The translations under genes and the position numbers were made by a program. A stretch of 64,000 nucleotides of DNA, from positions 1 to 64,000 of the IMG/VR virus record IMGVR_UViG_3300048582_000168. One strand, written 5' to 3'. The first letter of the stretch is position 1; the number at the start of each line of letters is the position of its first letter. Of the stretch, positions 2,682-63,122 are shown one piece after another. Below the pieces are notes generated by a model. That model did not search any database. It saw only the letters and a list, made by a program, of their open reading frames with translations, and was not told the DNA's origin. Source of the stretch: a virus.

Positions 2682-3540
2682 TCCGCGCGATTTCGGCAAG
2701 GCCCTGCGGCAGCGGGTCGAGGAAGCGGCGGCGGCGGTCGCCAAGTCGACGGTGCAGGGGCACTTCGACACCTTCGGGGATGACGTCCTGAAGCGGGTCG
2801 AGGTCATCACGACCCAAGAGGCCCGCAAGGCCATGGCCGACGTGAAGGCCGACCTGCACGCGGAGGCGCGGTTCACAACCCGCATGATCGAACAGATCGA
2901 ACAGCGGCTGGGCGAGGCGGTGGCGAAGCTGGCTGCCGTCGACATCACCCGGATCGAGGTGCGGCAGTTGGAGGCGGACGCGGACGTCCAGCGCCTGCTG
3001 AAACAGCGCGCCGATCTGGCGGCGGACCTCGTCGGGATCCGGAAGGCAGAGAGCGAACTCCGGCAGCTTGCCACGGCCCTGATCGGGCAGACCGAACAGG
3101 TCGATCACGTTGCCAAGACCATCGGTGCCCAGATCGCCAAGCTGCAGCAAGAGACCGAAGACCGCGCCACGGCGGCGGCCAACCTCGCGGTCACCGGCAT
3201 GCAGGCGACCGTCTTGCAGAAAATGCAAGACGACTTCGGCGCGATGCGAGAGGAACTCGAGACACACTTCCTCGCCAAGCTGCGTGACGACCTGAGCGAG
3301 ATTTTCGGGCACGGCATCGCGGACGCATTCAAGGGCCCGCACGTCGAAGGTGACACATACAAGCGCGGTGATATGGTGATGTTCCTCGGGTCGACGTGGA
3401 TCGCCAAGCGCGAGACGGACATGAAGCCGTCGATCTCCGAGGGCAAGGATGCGCCGTGGGGGCTTCTCGCGGCGGGCGGGTTCGGTCACAAGCTGATCGA
3501 GAAGAACAAGCGGGCAGCGTCCGGCGGGCGCAAGGGGTAG
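2671..3540 (+). CDS. coiled-coil head-region protein with CBM5/12-like C-terminus
   Basis: The 289-residue product starts at ATG 2671, ten bases before the portal stop ends, behind a good GGAGG. Residues 1 to about 215 are highly helical and charged with heptad-like spacing, so a long coiled coil is likely. The C-terminal 60 residues contain GDTYKRGDMVMFLGSTWIA followed by a T-x-x-x-P pattern, which resembles the small carbohydrate-binding modules of families 5/12 that are often found on phage virion proteins. It could be a head-associated fibre or whisker that contacts host surface sugar, or an accessory of the portal. The role is inferred; no family name is certain. Confidence 0.6.
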   Translation: MHADPRDFGKALRQRVEEAAAAVAKSTVQGHFDTFGDDVLKRVEVITTQEARKAMADVKADLHAEARFTTRMIEQIEQRLGEAVAKLAAVDITRIEVRQLEADADVQRLLKQRADLAADLVGIRKAESELRQLATALIGQTEQVDHVAKTIGAQIAKLQQETEDRATAAANLAVTGMQATVLQKMQDDFGAMREELETHFLAKLRDDLSEIFGHGIADAFKGPHVEGDTYKRGDMVMFLGSTWIAKRETDMKPSISEGKDAPWGLLAAGGFGHKLIEKNKRAASGGRKG

Positions 3541-3541
3541 G

Positions 3542-3772
3542 ATGGTGGCCAGCAACATCATCGCGTTCAGGGCTGAGGAAGGCTTCAGGAACGCCGTCGA
3601 GAAGGCAGCGACATTTCACGGGACGAACCGGTCGCTGCTGCTGAAGTCGTGGATCGTCGACCGGCTGGTCGCCGAAGGTTTCGCAGTCATAGAGGATATC
3701 ACCGATGAGCAGGATCAGGCCGGGGACGACCGCATGGACGAAAGCGATGCGGAACTTGCAGGGGTCGACTGA
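3542..3772 (+). CDS. small ribbon-helix-helix-like protein
   Basis: The 76-residue product starts two bases after the previous gene, with AGGGGTAGG immediately upstream. The first 45 residues have the pattern of a ribbon-helix-helix (Arc/CopG type) fold: a short strand IIAFRAEE, then two helices around a GTNRS turn and LLKSWIVDRL. The tail is acidic. It may be a DNA-binding regulator or simply a small structural protein. It overlaps the next gene by 68 bases, in a different frame, which makes one of the two start choices slightly uncertain. Confidence 0.55.
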   Translation: MVASNIIAFRAEEGFRNAVEKAATFHGTNRSLLLKSWIVDRLVAEGFAVIEDITDEQDQAGDDRMDESDAELAGVD

Positions 3773-4482: not shown

Positions 4483-7212
4483 ATGGCATCGGGGCGCATT
4501 CAACCCGGATCGCGGCAATGGGTCGAGGCCATGCGCCGCCTTTCAGGCACCGAAGACACGACGGTCGACATGTCGATGGGGCGCAAGGTGTCCCGCGACG
4601 CGGCCATCCCGCACGGCATGGGCACGGCGACACTTGACACCCGGCTGAGGGGTGCTGGCGCCTTTGTTCCGGTTGACCTGATCACTCCGGCGGTCCTTGC
4701 CTTGTCGGAAGATGAAGACGCCTTGACCTATACGCAGGGCGTCTGGTCGGGCGTGCCAGAGCCGGTAATCACCGGAAACCTGAACGTGGTCGGCGGTCCG
4801 TCTGGAATTTCGGTTCAGCCGGGCCCTATTCCTATCGATGATGCATGGCGTGGACGGCGGGTAAGCATCCTCGAGGGCGCGACCAATGATGGCGGCGCGA
4901 CAGGGATGCAGCAGGTCAGTAATTCTCTGGTGGTCCCTGCATTCCCAGCCTTGGATGCCGACGTGCGGGCTATCGTCGAGGGGCGGGGTTTCGTCTTTGA
5001 CCCGTCCGACCTCTCCACCCTCCGCGACAGCACGGGAGGCCCTATCACGGGGCCTGACCTTATTGGTCGGATCAACGGCAAGTGGGGTGCAGGGACCGAG
5101 AACCTCTCCCTCCAGAGCCCCTTCCCTTCGCTGACCGCAGAGAGTGACCTTAGCTTCTTGCGGGGGCTTGGGTTTGCGGGCTTCAACTTCCGGGGTGGGG
5201 ATGCCTACTGCGTGACGCTGGGCTTCAGGGTTCCCGCCCTTAATGCCGGAACTCTTCTCTATCGCCGTGAGCGAGGCAGCGGCAACGAGATGCTGGACGT
5301 CGTCCTGAACCCTGACGGGACGGTCACGGTCCTGATCGCCGGGTCTGATCAGCAGCGGGCGAACTCCGTCACGATCACTACCACCGACAGGGTGCAGCCG
5401 GGGGAATTCTTCTCGATCACCGCGCTGGCAAACTTCACGGCAAACACCGCCGAGGTCTGGCTGAACGGTGTAAGCCAAGGGACCGGCACCTTCTCGAGCG
5501 CCGCCGGGCCTGCGACCAGCATGACCCAGACGTGGGTGGTTCTGTATGCCATCGAACAGACCCTGTTCCGCCGGGTGGTCGAGTATGCTGGCCTGCCGAC
5601 GGCAGACGAGCGCGACCTGTTCGAGCGGTGGGTCACTCAGTCCGCCGGGGTGGGCCGGTCTCTGAGCGACAAGGTTCAGGCGATCATCGGCACGACGGCT
5701 GGCTTCGCCTTCGACCCTTTCGACTTCGCGACCAACCTGACCACGGGCAACGTTCCGGCGACTGCCCTCGGGCAGCCCATCCTGCGGCAGAACGCCAAGT
5801 GGGGCAGCGCGCCGGGGTTCTTCAGCGGCGGCGGCGTGCGACCCGTGATCGAGGCGCAAGGGCTGATCAACCCGGTGTCGGCGACCACCAACCCGACGAC
5901 GAACGCAGACGCCATCCTGCGGGGGTTTTTCCGCAACCGGTCGGCAATCTTCATCTGTCAGGCGATGCAGGTGCCGCGCCGCCCGGCATCCCGTGCGCAC
6001 GCCATCGCCTGCTCGCAAGTCAGCGGCGCGCTGGGCAGGCTGACCCTCCACACCGACTACGACCTGTCGGTCACGTTCAACTATCGCCGGACCGATCTGG
6101 GCGATGGGGCTGGCAAGGTCGAACTGCCGCCGAACACGCTGGTGCCCGGAGAGCGGACCGTCGTCTCCTGCGCGGTGGACTTTGCGAACGGCGGCGCCCG
6201 CATCTGGAAGGACGGCGTGCTTGGGGACAGCAGCGCCGTCCCGGCGGCGGGCGGAAACCTCGAGGATACCCTGCCGACCCGTGTGCGGTCGGGGGCTTTC
6301 GTCGCGGGCGGCGTCAACGAATTCTTCGAAGGCGGGCTGGGGCGGGCGGTCTATCTGCCGTTCATCCCGACTGCAGCCCAGCAAAAGGTGATCGAGGCAT
6401 GGGCGGCGGAGCCTCCAGAGGTGGAGTTGCCGACGGTCGCCAACCCGACCCTGACCGAGCGCGTGCAGGCCATCCTGCGGCAGACGAAGGGCTTCGCGCT
6501 GGACCCGCAAGACCTGACCCTGCTGTGGCAGGATGATGAAGCGATCACCCCGGTCACGGCGCCCGGGCAGCCGGTCGGCGCCATCCGGTCCAAGTTTGGC
6601 AACACCTCCTACACCTACCGGGCAGCCGACCCCATCGTGACGGCCTACGAAGGCGGGGCAATCTCGTTCGACGGGGCTGACGGCGGCCTGATCAACCCGA
6701 GCGACAACTTCACGACGAGCAACACCGGCATGCTTGTGGTGGCCCGGGTCGCAGCAGTGGCAGGTCAGCAGGATGACGCGCCCGTGGTGGCCTTCCTTGG
6801 CGTCGGCGGCGGCACGCGGATGGCGCTGGAACTGAAGTCAGACCTGCGCCCGGCCTTCTCGGTCGCGAGGCCGGACGCGAACGAACTGCAGATCACCGGC
6901 ACCGCACCCCTGACGCCCGGGCAGGCGCACACCCTGTCGGTCCGTGCCCTTTTCTTGGGCGCCCCCGCCCCCGTGCAGGGGTTCCTCGATGGCGTCCTCG
7001 CGGCAGAGGGCGTCCTCACCGGCACGCCTGCCGTGACCGATGCGCCCGTCGCGCCTTACGGTGGGCTCGGTCAGTGGGGTGACACCGCGCTGCAGTTTTC
7101 GGGCTACGTCGGGCGGGTGGTCTGCGCGCACTTTTTCCAGACCGACAAGGACCGGCAGGTATTCGAGGCATGGGTCGCCGAAGGACCGTGGCCAGCGGTT
7201 CCGCCGGGCTGA
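4483..7212 (+). CDS. large head-region fibre protein with three LamG-like modules
   Basis: The 909-residue product starts at ATG 4483 behind GAGGGGG. Residues 1-55 repeat the docking module of the preceding protein. Three related modules follow, beginning near residues 159, 394 and 657. Each opens with a V-AI-----GF-FDP-D sequence and continues as a beta-sandwich of the concanavalin A/LamG type, with segments such as VWLNGVSQGTG, RIWKDGVLGDSS and GFLDGVLAAEG; each ends near a FE-WV-/AWAAEPP sequence. These folds usually bind carbohydrate. A LamG protein between portal and MuF genes, instead of among tail fibres, suggests a capsid-borne adhesin. That location is inferred from gene order only. 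Confidence 0.65.
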   Translation: MASGRIQPGSRQWVEAMRRLSGTEDTTVDMSMGRKVSRDAAIPHGMGTATLDTRLRGAGAFVPVDLITPAVLALSEDEDALTYTQGVWSGVPEPVITGNLNVVGGPSGISVQPGPIPIDDAWRGRRVSILEGATNDGGATGMQQVSNSLVVPAFPALDADVRAIVEGRGFVFDPSDLSTLRDSTGGPITGPDLIGRINGKWGAGTENLSLQSPFPSLTAESDLSFLRGLGFAGFNFRGGDAYCVTLGFRVPALNAGTLLYRRERGSGNEMLDVVLNPDGTVTVLIAGSDQQRANSVTITTTDRVQPGEFFSITALANFTANTAEVWLNGVSQGTGTFSSAAGPATSMTQTWVVLYAIEQTLFRRVVEYAGLPTADERDLFERWVTQSAGVGRSLSDKVQAIIGTTAGFAFDPFDFATNLTTGNVPATALGQPILRQNAKWGSAPGFFSGGGVRPVIEAQGLINPVSATTNPTTNADAILRGFFRNRSAIFICQAMQVPRRPASRAHAIACSQVSGALGRLTLHTDYDLSVTFNYRRTDLGDGAGKVELPPNTLVPGERTVVSCAVDFANGGARIWKDGVLGDSSAVPAAGGNLEDTLPTRVRSGAFVAGGVNEFFEGGLGRAVYLPFIPTAAQQKVIEAWAAEPPEVELPTVANPTLTERVQAILRQTKGFALDPQDLTLLWQDDEAITPVTAPGQPVGAIRSKFGNTSYTYRAADPIVTAYEGGAISFDGADGGLINPSDNFTTSNTGMLVVARVAAVAGQQDDAPVVAFLGVGGGTRMALELKSDLRPAFSVARPDANELQITGTAPLTPGQAHTLSVRALFLGAPAPVQGFLDGVLAAEGVLTGTPAVTDAPVAPYGGLGQWGDTALQFSGYVGRVVCAHFFQTDKDRQVFEAWVAEGPWPAVPPG

Positions 7213-49265: not shown

Positions 49266-49282
49266 GGGATGGGTGTCCTTTC

Positions 49283-49318
49283 AGGGAGTAAGGCAGGGAG
49301 TAAGGCAGGGAGTAAGGC
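49283..49318. repeat. three tandem 12-bp repeats in leader
   Basis: AGGGAGTAAGGC occurs three times without a gap (49283-49294, 49295-49306, 49307-49318), followed by a partial fourth. It fills the distance between the -10 (49328-49323) and CTGAAAGG, so it forms almost the whole mRNA leader. Confidence 0.85.
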
Positions 49319-49322
49319 AGGG

Positions 49323-49361
49323 AACATGGTCCCCGCCGTTGATTTTGTCAAGTCCAGACTT
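49323..49361 (-). promoter_or_regulatory. leftward promoter with operator palindrome
   Basis: Read leftward: -35 TTGACA (49351-49346), 17-bp spacer, -10 CATGTT (49328-49323). AAGTCCAGACTT at 49350-49361 touches the -35. Confidence 0.65.
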
Positions 49362-54344: not shown

Positions 54345-54372
54345 GGTGTAAAGGCTTTTGCAGAAAAAGCAA
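54345..54372 (-). promoter_or_regulatory. candidate leftward early promoter
   Basis: Read leftward: -35 TTGCTT (54372-54367), 16-bp spacer, -10 TACACC (54350-54345). It overlaps the first TTGCAG...GCAAGA site, so a protein bound there would compete with polymerase. Confidence 0.45.
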
Positions 54373-54427
54373 GATCGCTCTTGCAGAAAAAGCAAGACGA
54401 AAAAGTTGCCAGAATGGACACAATGGG

Positions 54428-54483
54428 ACGGGAATGAACGGGAATGGACGGGAATGGACGCCACGCGCACACCACGCGCACAC
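54428..54483. repeat. 10-bp and 11-bp tandem repeats
   Basis: ACGGGAATGR is repeated three times at 54428-54457 with exact 10-bp period. CACGCGCACAC follows twice at 54462-54472 and 54473-54483. The same 11-mer begins the alternating tract at 60234. The tandem repeats resemble iterons of replication origins. Confidence 0.7.
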
Positions 54484-54495
54484 CACGGCCCCGCG

Positions 54496-54795: not shown

Positions 54796-55566
54796 ATGGC
54801 CGTCAAGAAAGCAGAAGTCGGGGAAGTCGTCATCGACACCCTGAAGACCGGAATGGTCCGCGCCCGCATCATCGGGCGCACCCCCCTCTACATGAACTCG
54901 ATGAGTGCGAAGACGAAGCGCACCCTGATGCTGGGCGGCGGGAAGAAAACCGCAGCCGAGAAAAAGGAACTGAAGCATCAGCCCTACGAGGAATTCGCGG
55001 ACTCGCTCTACCGCATCGGCGCCGGTCCGACCGCCCTCTGCTTCCCGGCCCCGGGCATCAAGGCCGCGATGGCGACCGCTGCCCTCGAGACGGCAGGCAT
55101 CACGAAGACCAGCGTCCAGCGCCTGATCTTCCTGCCCCAGCAGTCGGTCCCGATCTGGGGGCTGCCTTACCTGAAGATGGACGTAGTGCGGAGCGCAGAC
55201 ATGGCGCGGACCCCGGACGTGCGGACGCGCGGCTTCCTGCCCCGCTGGTGCGCGGAAATCGATATCACCTTCACCCAGCCCACCCTCAGTTACAAAGGCA
55301 TCCTGAGCCTCCTGTCGAACGCGGGCATCATCGTCGGCATCGGTGACTTCCGGCAGGAAAAGGGACGCGGGTCGTTCGGCACCTTCAACGTAGGCACCGA
55401 TCAGTCCGAAGGCGACTTCCTCGAGGAATGGAACGAAATCGTCGCCGAAGGTCGCACCGCGCAACTGACCGCGATGAAGAATCCGACCCCGATGCCGGAT
55501 GACTACGAGACCGAGAGCCTCCTGCAGATGTTCGATGAGGCCCTGAACAGCCGTCAGGCGGCCTGA
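54796..55566 (+). CDS. conserved phage replication-module protein, unknown
   Basis: The 256-residue product starts at ATG 54796 behind AAGGAG; a longer frame from 54709 has no RBS. The sequence RARIIGRTPLYMNSMS, the strand AEIDITFTQPTLSYKGILSLLSNAG and the GIGDFRQEKGRGSFGTF loop are conserved in related phages and slightly recall RAMP-fold (Cas7-like) glycine loops. It is the first gene of the rightward operon, before primase and helicase, so a single-strand binding or replication-complex role is likely but unproved. Confidence 0.7.
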   Translation: MAVKKAEVGEVVIDTLKTGMVRARIIGRTPLYMNSMSAKTKRTLMLGGGKKTAAEKKELKHQPYEEFADSLYRIGAGPTALCFPAPGIKAAMATAALETAGITKTSVQRLIFLPQQSVPIWGLPYLKMDVVRSADMARTPDVRTRGFLPRWCAEIDITFTQPTLSYKGILSLLSNAGIIVGIGDFRQEKGRGSFGTFNVGTDQSEGDFLEEWNEIVAEGRTAQLTAMKNPTPMPDDYETESLLQMFDEALNSRQAA

Positions 55567-55569
55567 CCG

Positions 55570-56094
55570 ATGGGGGCCCTCACGCGTGCAGACCGCCAGC
55601 GCATTCATGACGAATACCTGAATGCGACCGGAGCGAACAGCTTTGTCGCCGAAGACTTCGTCGATTGGCTGGAAGACAAGCCCACCCATGAAGCCTATGG
55701 GTGGTTCTTTGGAAAGACCGAGGCCGAAGCCGCGAAGGCTTGGCGCATCGGGCGCGCGAGGGCCTTTGTCAGCGACCTGCGGATCACGATCCGCAGGGTC
55801 GAACTGTCCCCCGAGGCGGTCAAGGTCAGGGTCATGCAGGCCCCGGCTGTCCTGTCGCACTACAGCAACCGGGTGAAGCCGAAAGGGGGCTACACCGCCT
55901 TCGACCCGTCGTCACCCGAGGATCAGGCCGAGTTGCAGCGGCACGCCAAGATGATGCTGAAGGGATGGCTTGGACGCCACGAATCGGCGGTCCTGCAGCG
56001 GCACGTCGACGCCATTCAGGGCGTGATCGACTGGCTGCAGACGCAGGAAATCCCACGGGACGACCATCCGGAGACGGACGCGAAGACCGGGTAA
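55570..56094 (+). CDS. unknown replication-module protein
   Basis: The 174-residue product starts 4 bases after the previous gene. It begins MGALTRADRQRIHDEYLNA and contains VAEDFVDWLEDKPTHEAYGWF, which looks helical, and a C-terminal part RHVDAIQGVIDWLQTQEIP. Related sequences occur beside the preceding gene in other phages, so the two may act together. It is directly followed by the pentameric array. Confidence 0.65.
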   Translation: MGALTRADRQRIHDEYLNATGANSFVAEDFVDWLEDKPTHEAYGWFFGKTEAEAAKAWRIGRARAFVSDLRITIRRVELSPEAVKVRVMQAPAVLSHYSNRVKPKGGYTAFDPSSPEDQAELQRHAKMMLKGWLGRHESAVLQRHVDAIQGVIDWLQTQEIPRDDHPETDAKTG

Positions 56095-56099
56095 CGATG

Positions 56100-56935
56100 C
56101 CGGGCGCGGGGTGACTTCGCGCCCGGATGGGCGAGGCACGGCGAGGTCGGGCGAGGTTTGGCGGGGCAGGGCAAAGCGGTCGCGATTTGGCGAGGCGGGG
56201 CGCGGCGAGGTTAGGCTCGGCGAGGCGGTCGTGGCACGGCGTGGCTTGGTGCGGCGCGGTTAGGCGCGGCGGGGCCGGGCGGTCATGGCGCGGCTGGGAA
56301 AGGCAGGGCAAGGCACGGCGGGGCCGGGCGGTCTTGGCGTGGCTCGGCACGGCATGGCACGGCGTGGCGGGGCTAGGCGGTCTTGGCGTGGCTTGGCCCG
56401 GCGCGGTCGGGTCAGGCGGGGCAAGGCGGTCGTGTTTTGGCACGGCGAGACCGGGCTGGGTCCGGCGAGGCGTGGCGGTCAAGGCGAGGCGCGGTGTGTC
56501 AAGGTGAGGCGCGGTCAGGCCGGGCATGGCCGGGCAAGGCTCGGCGGTCAAGGTCAGGTGGGGCCGGGCATGGCGCGGCGACCTGTGGCAAGGCGGTCGG
56601 GGTCGGTCTAGGTAGGGCGAGGTTTGGCGGGGCTGGGCGGTCGGGGTCGGACATGGCGAGGACAGGTGTGGCTGGGCGCGGTCAGGCGGTCAAGGTCTGG
56701 CAAGGTCTGGCCCGGTCGGGCTAGGCAAGGCGGTCGGGGCAAGGTTCGGACTGGCGAGGCGCGGCGTGGCAAGGCGGTCATGGCCAGACTGGGCTGGGTT
56801 AGGCACGGCGAGGACAGGCGGTCGAGGCTCGGCACGTCCGGGTTAGGCATGGCATGGTGGGGCGGTCTAGGCCCGGCAAGGCACGGCGCGGCGCGGCTTG
56901 GCCCGGTCGGGCTGGGCAACGCTGTCCCGGCTGGA
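56100..56935. repeat. G-rich array with 5-bp periodicity and about 47-bp super-repeat
   Basis: For over 800 bp the top strand follows GG-N-N-N with GG every five bases, mostly GGC plus two variable bases. About every 43-55 bp (once 72) the marker GCGGTC appears and shifts the phase by one base; copies lie near 56174, 56222, 56277, 56327, 56378, 56424, 56471, 56543, 56592, 56636, 56683, 56728, 56772, 56817 and 56860. The super-period is not a multiple of three and most frames on both strands stay open, so it is not a gene. Four successive GG steps fit a two-layer G-quadruplex motif. Confidence 0.9.
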
Positions 56936-56979
56936 TTTCAGATCGGGGTTCGGTCATCATGGCCGGACCCCAAACGGAA

Positions 56980-57015
56980 ACGGGGCAGGCCCGCCAGCCC
57001 GCCCCGTCCCTTTTT
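56980..57015 (+). terminator. terminator between array and primase gene
   Basis: ACGGGGC (56980-56986) pairs with GCCCCGT (57001-57007) and, after one mismatch, GGC with GCC; the loop is six bases. CCCTTTTTC follows. It would end transcripts that cross the G-rich array. Confidence 0.7.
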
Positions 57016-57045: not shown

Positions 57046-58404
57046 ATGCCACAAAATTTAGGCGAATCAGCCTATTCCGACAAGCCAAATCACCCTGAAA
57101 GTAACACCGGAGAACCGGACAAGGTTCCCCACGACCTCGACCCCAGCGCCTTCGTCGAAAACCTTGTCGGCAACGCGATCAACTGGGCCCACGAGCGCCC
57201 CGCCCTCTCTTGGACAATGCCGGACGGACGCCAGCCCGCCGTCGACTGGAACCCCGGCTCCATCGGACCGAAATTCACCCATGTCAGCGTCGGGCTCTTC
57301 CGGATCAATGACGTCGCCCAAGGGGCGAAGTTTTACCGCCGGGCAGAGAGTTGGACCGGGAACCTCGCCATCGTCCTTGACGACATCGGAGAGGAAAAGC
57401 ACGGCGTCGTCTTGATGCCCCCGAAGCTGGACCCTACGATTGTCATCGAGACGAAGCCCGGGTCGCAGCAATGGTGGTATGTTTTCAAAACCGCCCTGCG
57501 CAACGCCTCGACCATCGACCGGATGATGCGGTCCCTGATCGAGGCAGGCCACGGTGACAAGGGCGGGTCGACCGGCAAGACCAGCCTGATCCGCCTCGCC
57601 CGCCTGCCGGGCAGCGACCCGAAAGGACGCGGCATCCCCGCCCGGATCGTCTTCGAAGACTGGCGCCGCAGGTTCGTCCCCGATGCCGAGCGGCTGTTCC
57701 AGAAGGACGGCTTCAACCTGCCCCTCCTCAGCCCGCGCCCCGTCCTCACCGCGTCGAACGCGGTCCTGATCCTGCAGAACGGCGAAGACCCCCTGCTGGA
57801 CTGGCTGTCGGCCAATGGCCAGACCCTCGAACCCGCCCCGAACAGCCAAGGATGGATTGCCATCCGCTGCCCTTGGCACGGGGAGCATACCGGCGGCGCC
57901 CAAGGGGGCACCGGATACCGGTCAGCCCAGCCGAACGGCGTCTTCTGCTTTCACGGCGCCTGCGCCCACCGGCAGCCCCATGACTTCTTCGCCCATTGGA
58001 TGGCCAGCGGCGCCCCGGTGCTGCCAGAGGCAGGCCCTGTCGACCGCGATGAGGCCCTGATCAGGCTGGCCGGGCTTCTCGACCTGAGCGACGATATCCG
58101 GCAGCTTCACATCGCCAAGGAACCCCGCACGTCGGCGAACGCGATGCCGTTGGCGATGGCCCTCGCCCGCGCCCGGGTGCCGTGGGCCGATGCCGGGCAG
58201 ATGATCGCCTACTACTGGCTGGGGGACGAACGGCCCGCGATGCTGGCCCTCGCCCGCGTCATCGCGTGGCGCGCGGACCTGATGATGCTTGACGCCCGCG
58301 CCGAATACGACGCCATCGCAGATGCCCTGAAAGAGACGAATATCCCCAAACCAACTGAGGCGGCGATCAACGCCTTCCTTGCCAGCATGGAGCCTAGAGA
58401 ATGA
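57046..58404 (+). CDS. primase (RepB/AEP-like) with zinc-binding domain
   Basis: The 452-residue product starts at ATG 57046 behind AAGGAAGG; longer frames run back into the array. Residues 75-215 resemble the archaeo-eukaryotic/RepB-like primase core: the acidic pair in AIVLDDIG (D112-D113), WWYVFKTAL, and LIRLARLPGSDPKG. Residues 270-310 hold a zinc site of CHC2 type: CPWHGEH (C275, H278), CFHGAC (C301, C306). The C-terminus is helical. It should lay primers and works with the helicase encoded next. Confidence 0.8.
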   Translation: MPQNLGESAYSDKPNHPESNTGEPDKVPHDLDPSAFVENLVGNAINWAHERPALSWTMPDGRQPAVDWNPGSIGPKFTHVSVGLFRINDVAQGAKFYRRAESWTGNLAIVLDDIGEEKHGVVLMPPKLDPTIVIETKPGSQQWWYVFKTALRNASTIDRMMRSLIEAGHGDKGGSTGKTSLIRLARLPGSDPKGRGIPARIVFEDWRRRFVPDAERLFQKDGFNLPLLSPRPVLTASNAVLILQNGEDPLLDWLSANGQTLEPAPNSQGWIAIRCPWHGEHTGGAQGGTGYRSAQPNGVFCFHGACAHRQPHDFFAHWMASGAPVLPEAGPVDRDEALIRLAGLLDLSDDIRQLHIAKEPRTSANAMPLAMALARARVPWADAGQMIAYYWLGDERPAMLALARVIAWRADLMMLDARAEYDAIADALKETNIPKPTEAAINAFLASMEPRE

Positions 58405-61883: not shown

Positions 61884-63122
61884 ATGCAGACCGTCCAGCG
61901 CGACCCGAAGACCCTGACCCCGCACCCGAAGAACAGCCGCAAGCACACCGCGACCCAGATCGAGATGCTGGCGGACGCGATGCTGGCCTTCGGCTTTCAC
62001 CAGCCGGTCGTCGTCGACGCGAACGACGTGATCCTGATCGGCCACGCGCGGACCGAGGCGGCCATCGCGGCAGGGCTCACCACCATCCCGGTCGTCGTCC
62101 GGTCCGACCTGACCGAAGCGCAGGCCCGCGCGCTGATCGTCGCGGACAACCGGCTGCACGAATTCGGCGCCGGGTGGGATGAGGCCATCCTCGGCGAAGA
62201 ACTCCGCGCGCTGATGGCCGAAGGCATCGACGTCACGGTGACAGGTTTCGATACCCCGGAGCCTGTTGCTAAAAAAAGCAAGACGGCAGACGAAGACGAT
62301 GTGCCGGAGCCCCCGGCCACGCCTCTCACGCAACCCGGCGACGTCTGGATCCTCGGGCAGCACCGGCTGCATTGCGGGGACTCGACCAGCCCGGACCTCT
62401 TGGCGGCCTGCATGGCAGCGAAGCCGGTCGCGATGGTCACAGACCCGCCCTACGGGGTGGTCTACGACGCGGCATGGCGCGACGAAGCTGGGATCGGCAG
62501 CGAAGGCTCGGCCAAGGGCGTCGTGCTGAACGACGACCGCGCGGACTGGCGCGAGGTGTGGGCAGGCTTCACCGGAGCGGCGGCCTTCGTCTGGCACGCG
62601 GGCACGAGGGCGCATGAAGTCCACGAGAGCCTCGTCGCGGCAGGGTTCGACGTGAAAGCGCAGATCGTCTGGGCCAAGAACCGGGCGGCCATCGGTCGCG
62701 GCCATTACCACCACGGCCATGAGCCCGCGTTCTATGCCACCCGCAAGAAAGCCAAGCCGAAGTGGCACGGCCCGGCGCTGTCCACCCTCTGGGAGATCGG
62801 GCACTCGCGGTCGCACACCGGCCACTCGACGCAAAAGCCGGTCGAGGCCATGCGCAGGCCCATCCTCGCCCTGACCGCGCCCGGGGACGTCGTGTTCGAA
62901 CCGTTCAGCGGGTCGGGCACCACCCTGATCGCCTGCGAGATGGTCGGGCGGACCTGCGTCGCCATCGAACTGAGCCCGGAATACTGCGACGTCGCTGCCA
63001 CGCGCTGGGCCCGCTGGACGGGCGAAAAGCCCAAGCTGATGCGGGCAGGCGTCGAGGTGGACCTGCCGGACCCCGCCGGGCAGGCAGGCAGCGAAGCGGG
63101 CGTGGTGGAGATTGCCGAATGA
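61884..63122 (+). CDS. ParB-like domain fused to DNA methyltransferase
   Basis: The 412-residue product begins with a ParB/Srx-like domain (LTPHPKNSRKHTATQI, PVVVDANDVILIGHARTEAA; residues 10-95). A linker rich in Glu and Pro follows. The methyltransferase has the beta-class order: DPPY at 187-190 (VTDPPYG), then the target-recognition part, HSTQKP at 315-320, and the SAM motif FEPFSGSGTT at 338-347 with E362. It would methylate adenine-N6 or cytosine-N4 in a short DNA motif and protect phage DNA or change regulation. No restriction partner is nearby. Confidence 0.9.
   Translation: MQTVQRDPKTLTPHPKNSRKHTATQIEMLADAMLAFGFHQPVVVDANDVILIGHARTEAAIAAGLTTIPVVVRSDLTEAQARALIVADNRLHEFGAGWDEAILGEELRALMAEGIDVTVTGFDTPEPVAKKSKTADEDDVPEPPATPLTQPGDVWILGQHRLHCGDSTSPDLLAACMAAKPVAMVTDPPYGVVYDAAWRDEAGIGSEGSAKGVVLNDDRADWREVWAGFTGAAAFVWHAGTRAHEVHESLVAAGFDVKAQIVWAKNRAAIGRGHYHHGHEPAFYATRKKAKPKWHGPALSTLWEIGHSRSHTGHSTQKPVEAMRRPILALTAPGDVVFEPFSGSGTTLIACEMVGRTCVAIELSPEYCDVAATRWARWTGEKPKLMRAGVEVDLPDPAGQAGSEAGVVEIAE

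Follow-up and report, generated by a model that had tools for sequence, protein, structure and literature searches.

The GG-rich array of the window (the whole stretch of 64,000 nucleotides that was analysed, positions 1 to 64,000 of IMG/VR record IMGVR_UViG_3300048582_000168) and the genes adjoining it are, with a probability of about 94%, a phage-borne VIPR system in which the array strings together some 16 guide RNAs. VIPR (Viral Interference Programmable Repeat), as outlined in a preprint of April 2026 (PMC13142463, bioRxiv 2026.04.26.720920), is a CRISPR-like system used by phages against rival phages; it comprises a RAMP protein (Vipr), accessory genes (vap), and vrRNAs in which GGY alternates with NN; the NN pairs read double-stranded DNA by skipping one target base, and repression of the target gene is demonstrated there for other VIPRs. 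VIPR as a kind is already known, and the statement of the first-pass annotation that no phage element of this kind had been described has been overtaken by the preprint; what is added here is the marker-delimited layout of the guides, the edges of the module, and a candidate target in a primase gene. The features of the locus are the following.

54796–55566, + strand: vipr gene, 256 aa from the ATG, RAMP/Cas7-like, phrog_4652 (PDB profile match, PHROG, AlphaFold2 model)
55570–56094, + strand: candidate vap (Vipr-accessory protein), 174 aa, with homologues beside vipr
56125–56923, + strand: guide (vrRNA) array comprising some 16 guides with 8–11 GGYNN units each, blocks starting with GTC-NN and ending with the 4-nt GGCG
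56175–56181, + strand: first phase-shift marker (AGCGGTC), followed by fourteen GGCGGTC markers
56331–56375, + strand: guide TT-GT-TC-AC-AT-AC-GT-GG-TA, candidate target in the primase gene of contig L228 (8983–9008, minus strand)
56945–57012, + strand: two hairpins, the second a terminator, in a conserved flank also found in the array-less L228
57046–58404, + strand: primase-like gene, phrog_4861, a neighbour outside the cassette
57430–57455, − strand: counterpart, in the primase gene of the window phage, of the 56331 guide's target site, 14/18 positions matched, 4 mismatches

The array is governed by a 5-base rhythm of GG: in the autocorrelation between 56096 and 56935, lag 5 gives 129 pairs and dinucleotide-shuffled sequence gives 50 (z 14.5), which bears out both the periodicity noticed at first pass and the view that selection really maintains a fixed spacing around variable filler. 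The further claim that selection acts on the spacing of GG and not on the sequence is right for the spacing and wrong for the sequence, because it is the variable NN pairs that hold the information, as a gapped guide code. Segmentation yields 149 pentamers of the form G-G/T-Y-N-N plus 4-nt units, with G at position 1 in 148/149 and at position 2 in 124/149, a pyrimidine (C/T) at position 3 in 144/149, and all four bases at positions 4 and 5; the top strand carries a strong G bias. The super-repeat, given earlier as about 47 bp, has this length only as an average: the peaks lie at 49 and 44, with the maximum at lag 49 (134 vs 47 in shuffles, z 15.3), lag 47 is depleted (16 vs 47), and the blocks measure 49 bp across the first half of the array (54 bp once) and 44 bp across the second. 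The fifteen phase-shift markers are confirmed as one AGCGGTC and fourteen GGCGGTC, and the few further GCGGTC strings are ordinary units in phase. Each marker is made up of GGCG, a 4-nt unit, and the start of the next pentamer, GTC-NN, and therefore the block lengths are 5n+4.

At 56478–56497 a four-unit remnant (AA-GA-GC-GT) precedes a GTC-type start devoid of its GGCG; it is apparently a truncated (or fused) guide, whose first three pairs are common to the next guide. The non-coding nature of the array stands, translation across it having been checked and rejected because blocks of 49 and 44 shift the frame and the codon-position composition is flat. A B-DNA half-turn phasing was also discarded, as spacings averaging 4.9 bp drift in the wrong direction for 10.5 bp/turn; of the protein array that GG every half helical turn had been supposed to guide, the ordered protein array was a good guess, because Vipr, a RAMP, presumably lines up on the RNA, while the phasing on DNA falls away, the functional form probably being RNA. 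Half-turn phasing also gives no account of the kept pyrimidine, of the RAMP gene linked to the array, or of target matches that follow the coding frame.

The neighbouring proteins of the arrays were compared all-against-all, which gave one family adjoining the arrays that was then used in profile searches. This vipr family is present in 85 of the 116 array loci listed, nearly always on the strand of the array and often with the gene ending 0–20 bp before it; the linkage is not built in, because the loci were gathered by DNA pattern alone. The family profile (alignment A1, 70 sequences, window protein included) matches PDB entry 36pp, "SUSP1 Vipr protein", over nearly its full length (E=5e-40), and the AlphaFold2 model of the window protein (mean pLDDT 73.5) finds its best structural matches by Foldseek in the CRISPR RAMPs Csm3 and type VII Cas7. 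The profile match, the RAMP-like model, and the position of the family beside the arrays together identify the system as VIPR. Searching viral and genome contigs with the window Vipr alone as a protein query gave no relatives, whereas the clade alignment A3 recovered them; among family members the PADLOC CRISPR models gave one match only, a weak one, and a Pfam search matched no CRISPR model. Short tandem repeats with units of 23 bp, 10 bp, and 11 bp are clustered just 5' of vipr (54354–54487).

A second family, whose window member is encoded at 55570–56094, occurs at 28–29 array-bearing loci among the 116 listed; the predicted model of the window protein combines helices and beta structure, its winged-helix matches are weak and non-significant, and the gene is a candidate vap. 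The edges of the cassette are defined by L228, a contig that shares synteny with the window phage (71–85% nucleotide identity over the aligned flank segments) in which other DNA replaces vipr, vap, and the array between conserved flanks, a modular replacement, and in which homology to the window resumes at 56924, the right edge of the array. The hairpins, terminator included, occur in this array-less contig and are therefore part of the flank; the array, said at first pass to end at a terminator, does have one downstream, but its own limit is 56923. The different DNA in the place of the cassette spans 6922–8477 of L228, a site that is possibly a cargo hot spot. Elsewhere in the window, a perfect tandem repeat of a 12-bp unit (CAGGGAGTAAGG, 3.5 copies) lies at 49282–49323, and one gene at 61884–63122 encodes both a ParB-like nuclease domain and a DNA methyltransferase (phrog_498, phrog_620).

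The array is not unique to the window phage: the strict pattern (GGYNN)x7-GG scanned over IMG/VR gave at least 120 loci, and BLAST revealed the same kind in Mycobacterium phages of the genus Cheoctovirus. At the 116 array loci among those listed, 4-nt units, mostly GGCA or GGCG, interrupt the series most often every 8–13 units. The large phage clade of the window array includes members in Pararhodobacter and other alphaproteobacteria, and one Vipr clade counts more than 500 candidate relatives. Mycobacterium phage Donkeykong (L129) carries a VIPR-type array at 5996–6346 with vipr directly downstream (gp49/gp54 in the Donkeykong/SwagPigglett pair, annotated as hypothetical protein), and gene 48 of Donkeykong, annotated over the array, is probably spurious; in the Cheoctovirus phage SwagPigglett (L130) the array (3001–3257) lies immediately 5' of a vipr likewise annotated as hypothetical protein. 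"Hypothetical" genes of the Gordonia phages UmaThurman, Pipp, Ecliptus, and ODay are Vipr homologues with 30–32% identity to the window Vipr. In another contig (L011, ~3060–3660, minus strand), GGYNN tracts alternate with a repeated constant element of ~60–70 nt resembling a structured tail or a ribozyme-type spacer.

The gapped code was examined in the clade by searching 2.1 Mb of fetched DNA, the arrays themselves excluded, for exact matches to all NN strings of all arrays; skips of 0–3 were allowed, and reversed strings served as a control. Exact matches of 8 units numbered 7, 54, 5, and 5 for skips 0, 1, 2, and 3, respectively, and those of 9 units 0, 13, 0, and 0; the 54 matches with a skip of one are not independent events, because they derive from 13 guide strings and many of the matches lie in related phages; the reversed strings gave no excess. 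The matches recurring in several related phages all keep the reading frame, the skipped base occupying the third (wobble) position of the codon; their targets are TerL (two sites), a prohead protease, and, within vipr itself, the codons of the G-loop, the names TerL and prohead protease being a reading of translations; matches occurring singly show no codon phase and are probably due to chance. The 1-nt-skip code of VIPR is in this way replicated independently of the published sequences.

The same comparison sets the boundaries of the guides. In two related arrays (L220 and L147) the part of the guide that matches the target begins with the first NN following GTC and stops at the last NN preceding GGCG, and the marker spacings are 5n+4 in 274/350 cases (109 distinct arrays of the clade); therefore, in this clade, one super-repeat bounded by GGCG|GTC markers is one guide. 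On balance, a broader picture is slightly favoured for this large clade, namely that the guide is one super-repeat set off by the 4-nt phase-shift marker (GGCG|GTC) rather than a separate tailed RNA, that as many as 16 guides could be contained in a single unbroken transcript, and that core replication and head genes of near relatives (primase, TerL, prohead protease, vipr) are hit while the own copies diverge at the coded positions.

As for the window itself, the guide at 56331 matches the antisense strand of the L228 primase gene at 16/18 positions with a 1-nt skip located at the wobble base; other skips leave 5 or 6 mismatches at best, and none of 400 shuffled guides equalled the match. Under the 1-nt rule no window guide has a target with 3 or fewer mismatches in its own window. 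A relaxed pattern of the 56331 guide, which was built around the L228 site, was found in two IMG/VR contigs only, L228 and the unrelated AT-rich L241, where the match is probably due to chance. No perfect natural target emerged for any window guide in the IMG/VR and Rhodobacteraceae scans: exact IMG/VR scans of guides 56228 and 56498 gave no matches, genome scans of the Rhodobacteraceae family and order gave no target, and the perfect target of the 56331 guide (sense reading xPTVIVETK) was absent from the searched sequences. The remaining 15 guides have no convincing target; two-mismatch matches of other window guides in L139, L141, L216, L136, and L213 were set aside, their codon phase not being convincing. 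The match of the 56331 guide to the L228 primase gene, one imperfect target, next to a diverged own copy, fits warfare between relatives with self-avoidance.

The array would be transcribed into vrRNAs, on which, to judge from the fold and from the published system (PMC13142463), successive Vipr copies may grip the GGY triplets and leave each NN pair exposed for base pairing. The complex would then find DNA matching the NN pairs, with one base skipped between pairs, usually the wobble base of a codon, and may repress the target gene as do other VIPRs (PMC13142463). The window phage probably turns this system on related competing phages, its own primase gene having diverged from the guide.

With the VIPR of Escherichia phage SUSP1 the locus has in common the Vipr RAMP, the alternation of GGY and NN, the 1-nt-skip code, wobble-aligned targets in competing phages, the location in a phage genome, and perhaps, in the candidate gene adjoining vipr, a vap; the array flanks vipr on the same strand, and its guides of 8–11 units stand against 9–16 in published VIPR (PMC13142463). 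The sequence features of VIPR are present except the constant 3' tail: no constant structured 3' tail was seen between the window guides, and only the 7-nt marker is common to them. The SUSP1 vrRNA units are ~100 nt long with a structured 3' tail, whereas the window guides run head to tail with the GGCG|GTC marker between them. Published vrRNAs of the SUSP1 and P. fulva clades have a structured invariable tail, which is not given as a defining trait of all seven types; array architectures differ between types, and the marker-delimited layout may be that of the "staggered arrays with overlapping vrRNAs" named in the preprint (PMC13142463). VIPR, proposed as a forerunner of CRISPR, shares with class 1 CRISPR-Cas (Cas7/Csm3) a RAMP fold with G-loop, RNA-guided recognition, and periodic unpaired positions. 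In contrast to the contiguous spacers of class 1 systems, the guide here consists of gapped NN pairs, and no cas genes, palindromic repeats, or constant repeats with unique spacers were seen at the window locus. TIGR-Tas (tandem interspaced guide RNA) systems are likewise phage-associated compact guide-RNA arrays; by description, their protein family and guide layout differ from those of VIPR.

A degenerate or decaying VIPR cassette, whose guides are no longer active, would agree with window guides that have no perfect target and with the fused or truncated guide at 56478–56497; it is nevertheless very unlikely, given that the GGY positions are strongly kept over 149 units, that the vipr and vap reading frames are both open, and that a guide still matches the primase gene of a relative, the own copy having diverged. 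A two-layer G-quadruplex tract that controls replication or transcription, the fold suggested at first pass, is compatible with the GG-N3 spacing, suited to two-tetrad quadruplexes, and with the G strand bias, but is not needed and leaves unexplained the third-base pyrimidine, the 5n+4 markers, the linked RAMP gene, and the NN-coded, single-skip matches to coding frames of related phages, by which the loops are not free; its probability is minimal. The TRAP 11-mer ring binds (G/U)AG-NN repeats, triplets with two free nucleotides between them as in the array, and an array bound by a ring-shaped protein of this type (9–11 triplets, 2-nt spacing) would account for the spacing and for blocks of 9–11 units, yet it is practically negligible because the block length changes within one array (8–10 units), the linked protein is a RAMP with no TRAP homologue present, and the variable NN bases hold target information.

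With the VIPR reading, a strange raw repeat is now placed in a newly described RNA-guided system, whose gapped code is replicated and whose guide boundaries are defined for marker-delimited arrays. The primase gene of a competitor as a candidate natural target, together with self-avoidance, makes inter-phage warfare directly testable. VIPR is common, with at least 120 contigs found by one strict pattern and one Vipr clade alone having more than 500 candidate relatives, and it also extends to well-studied Mycobacterium and Gordonia phages, in which the vipr genes are annotated as hypothetical.
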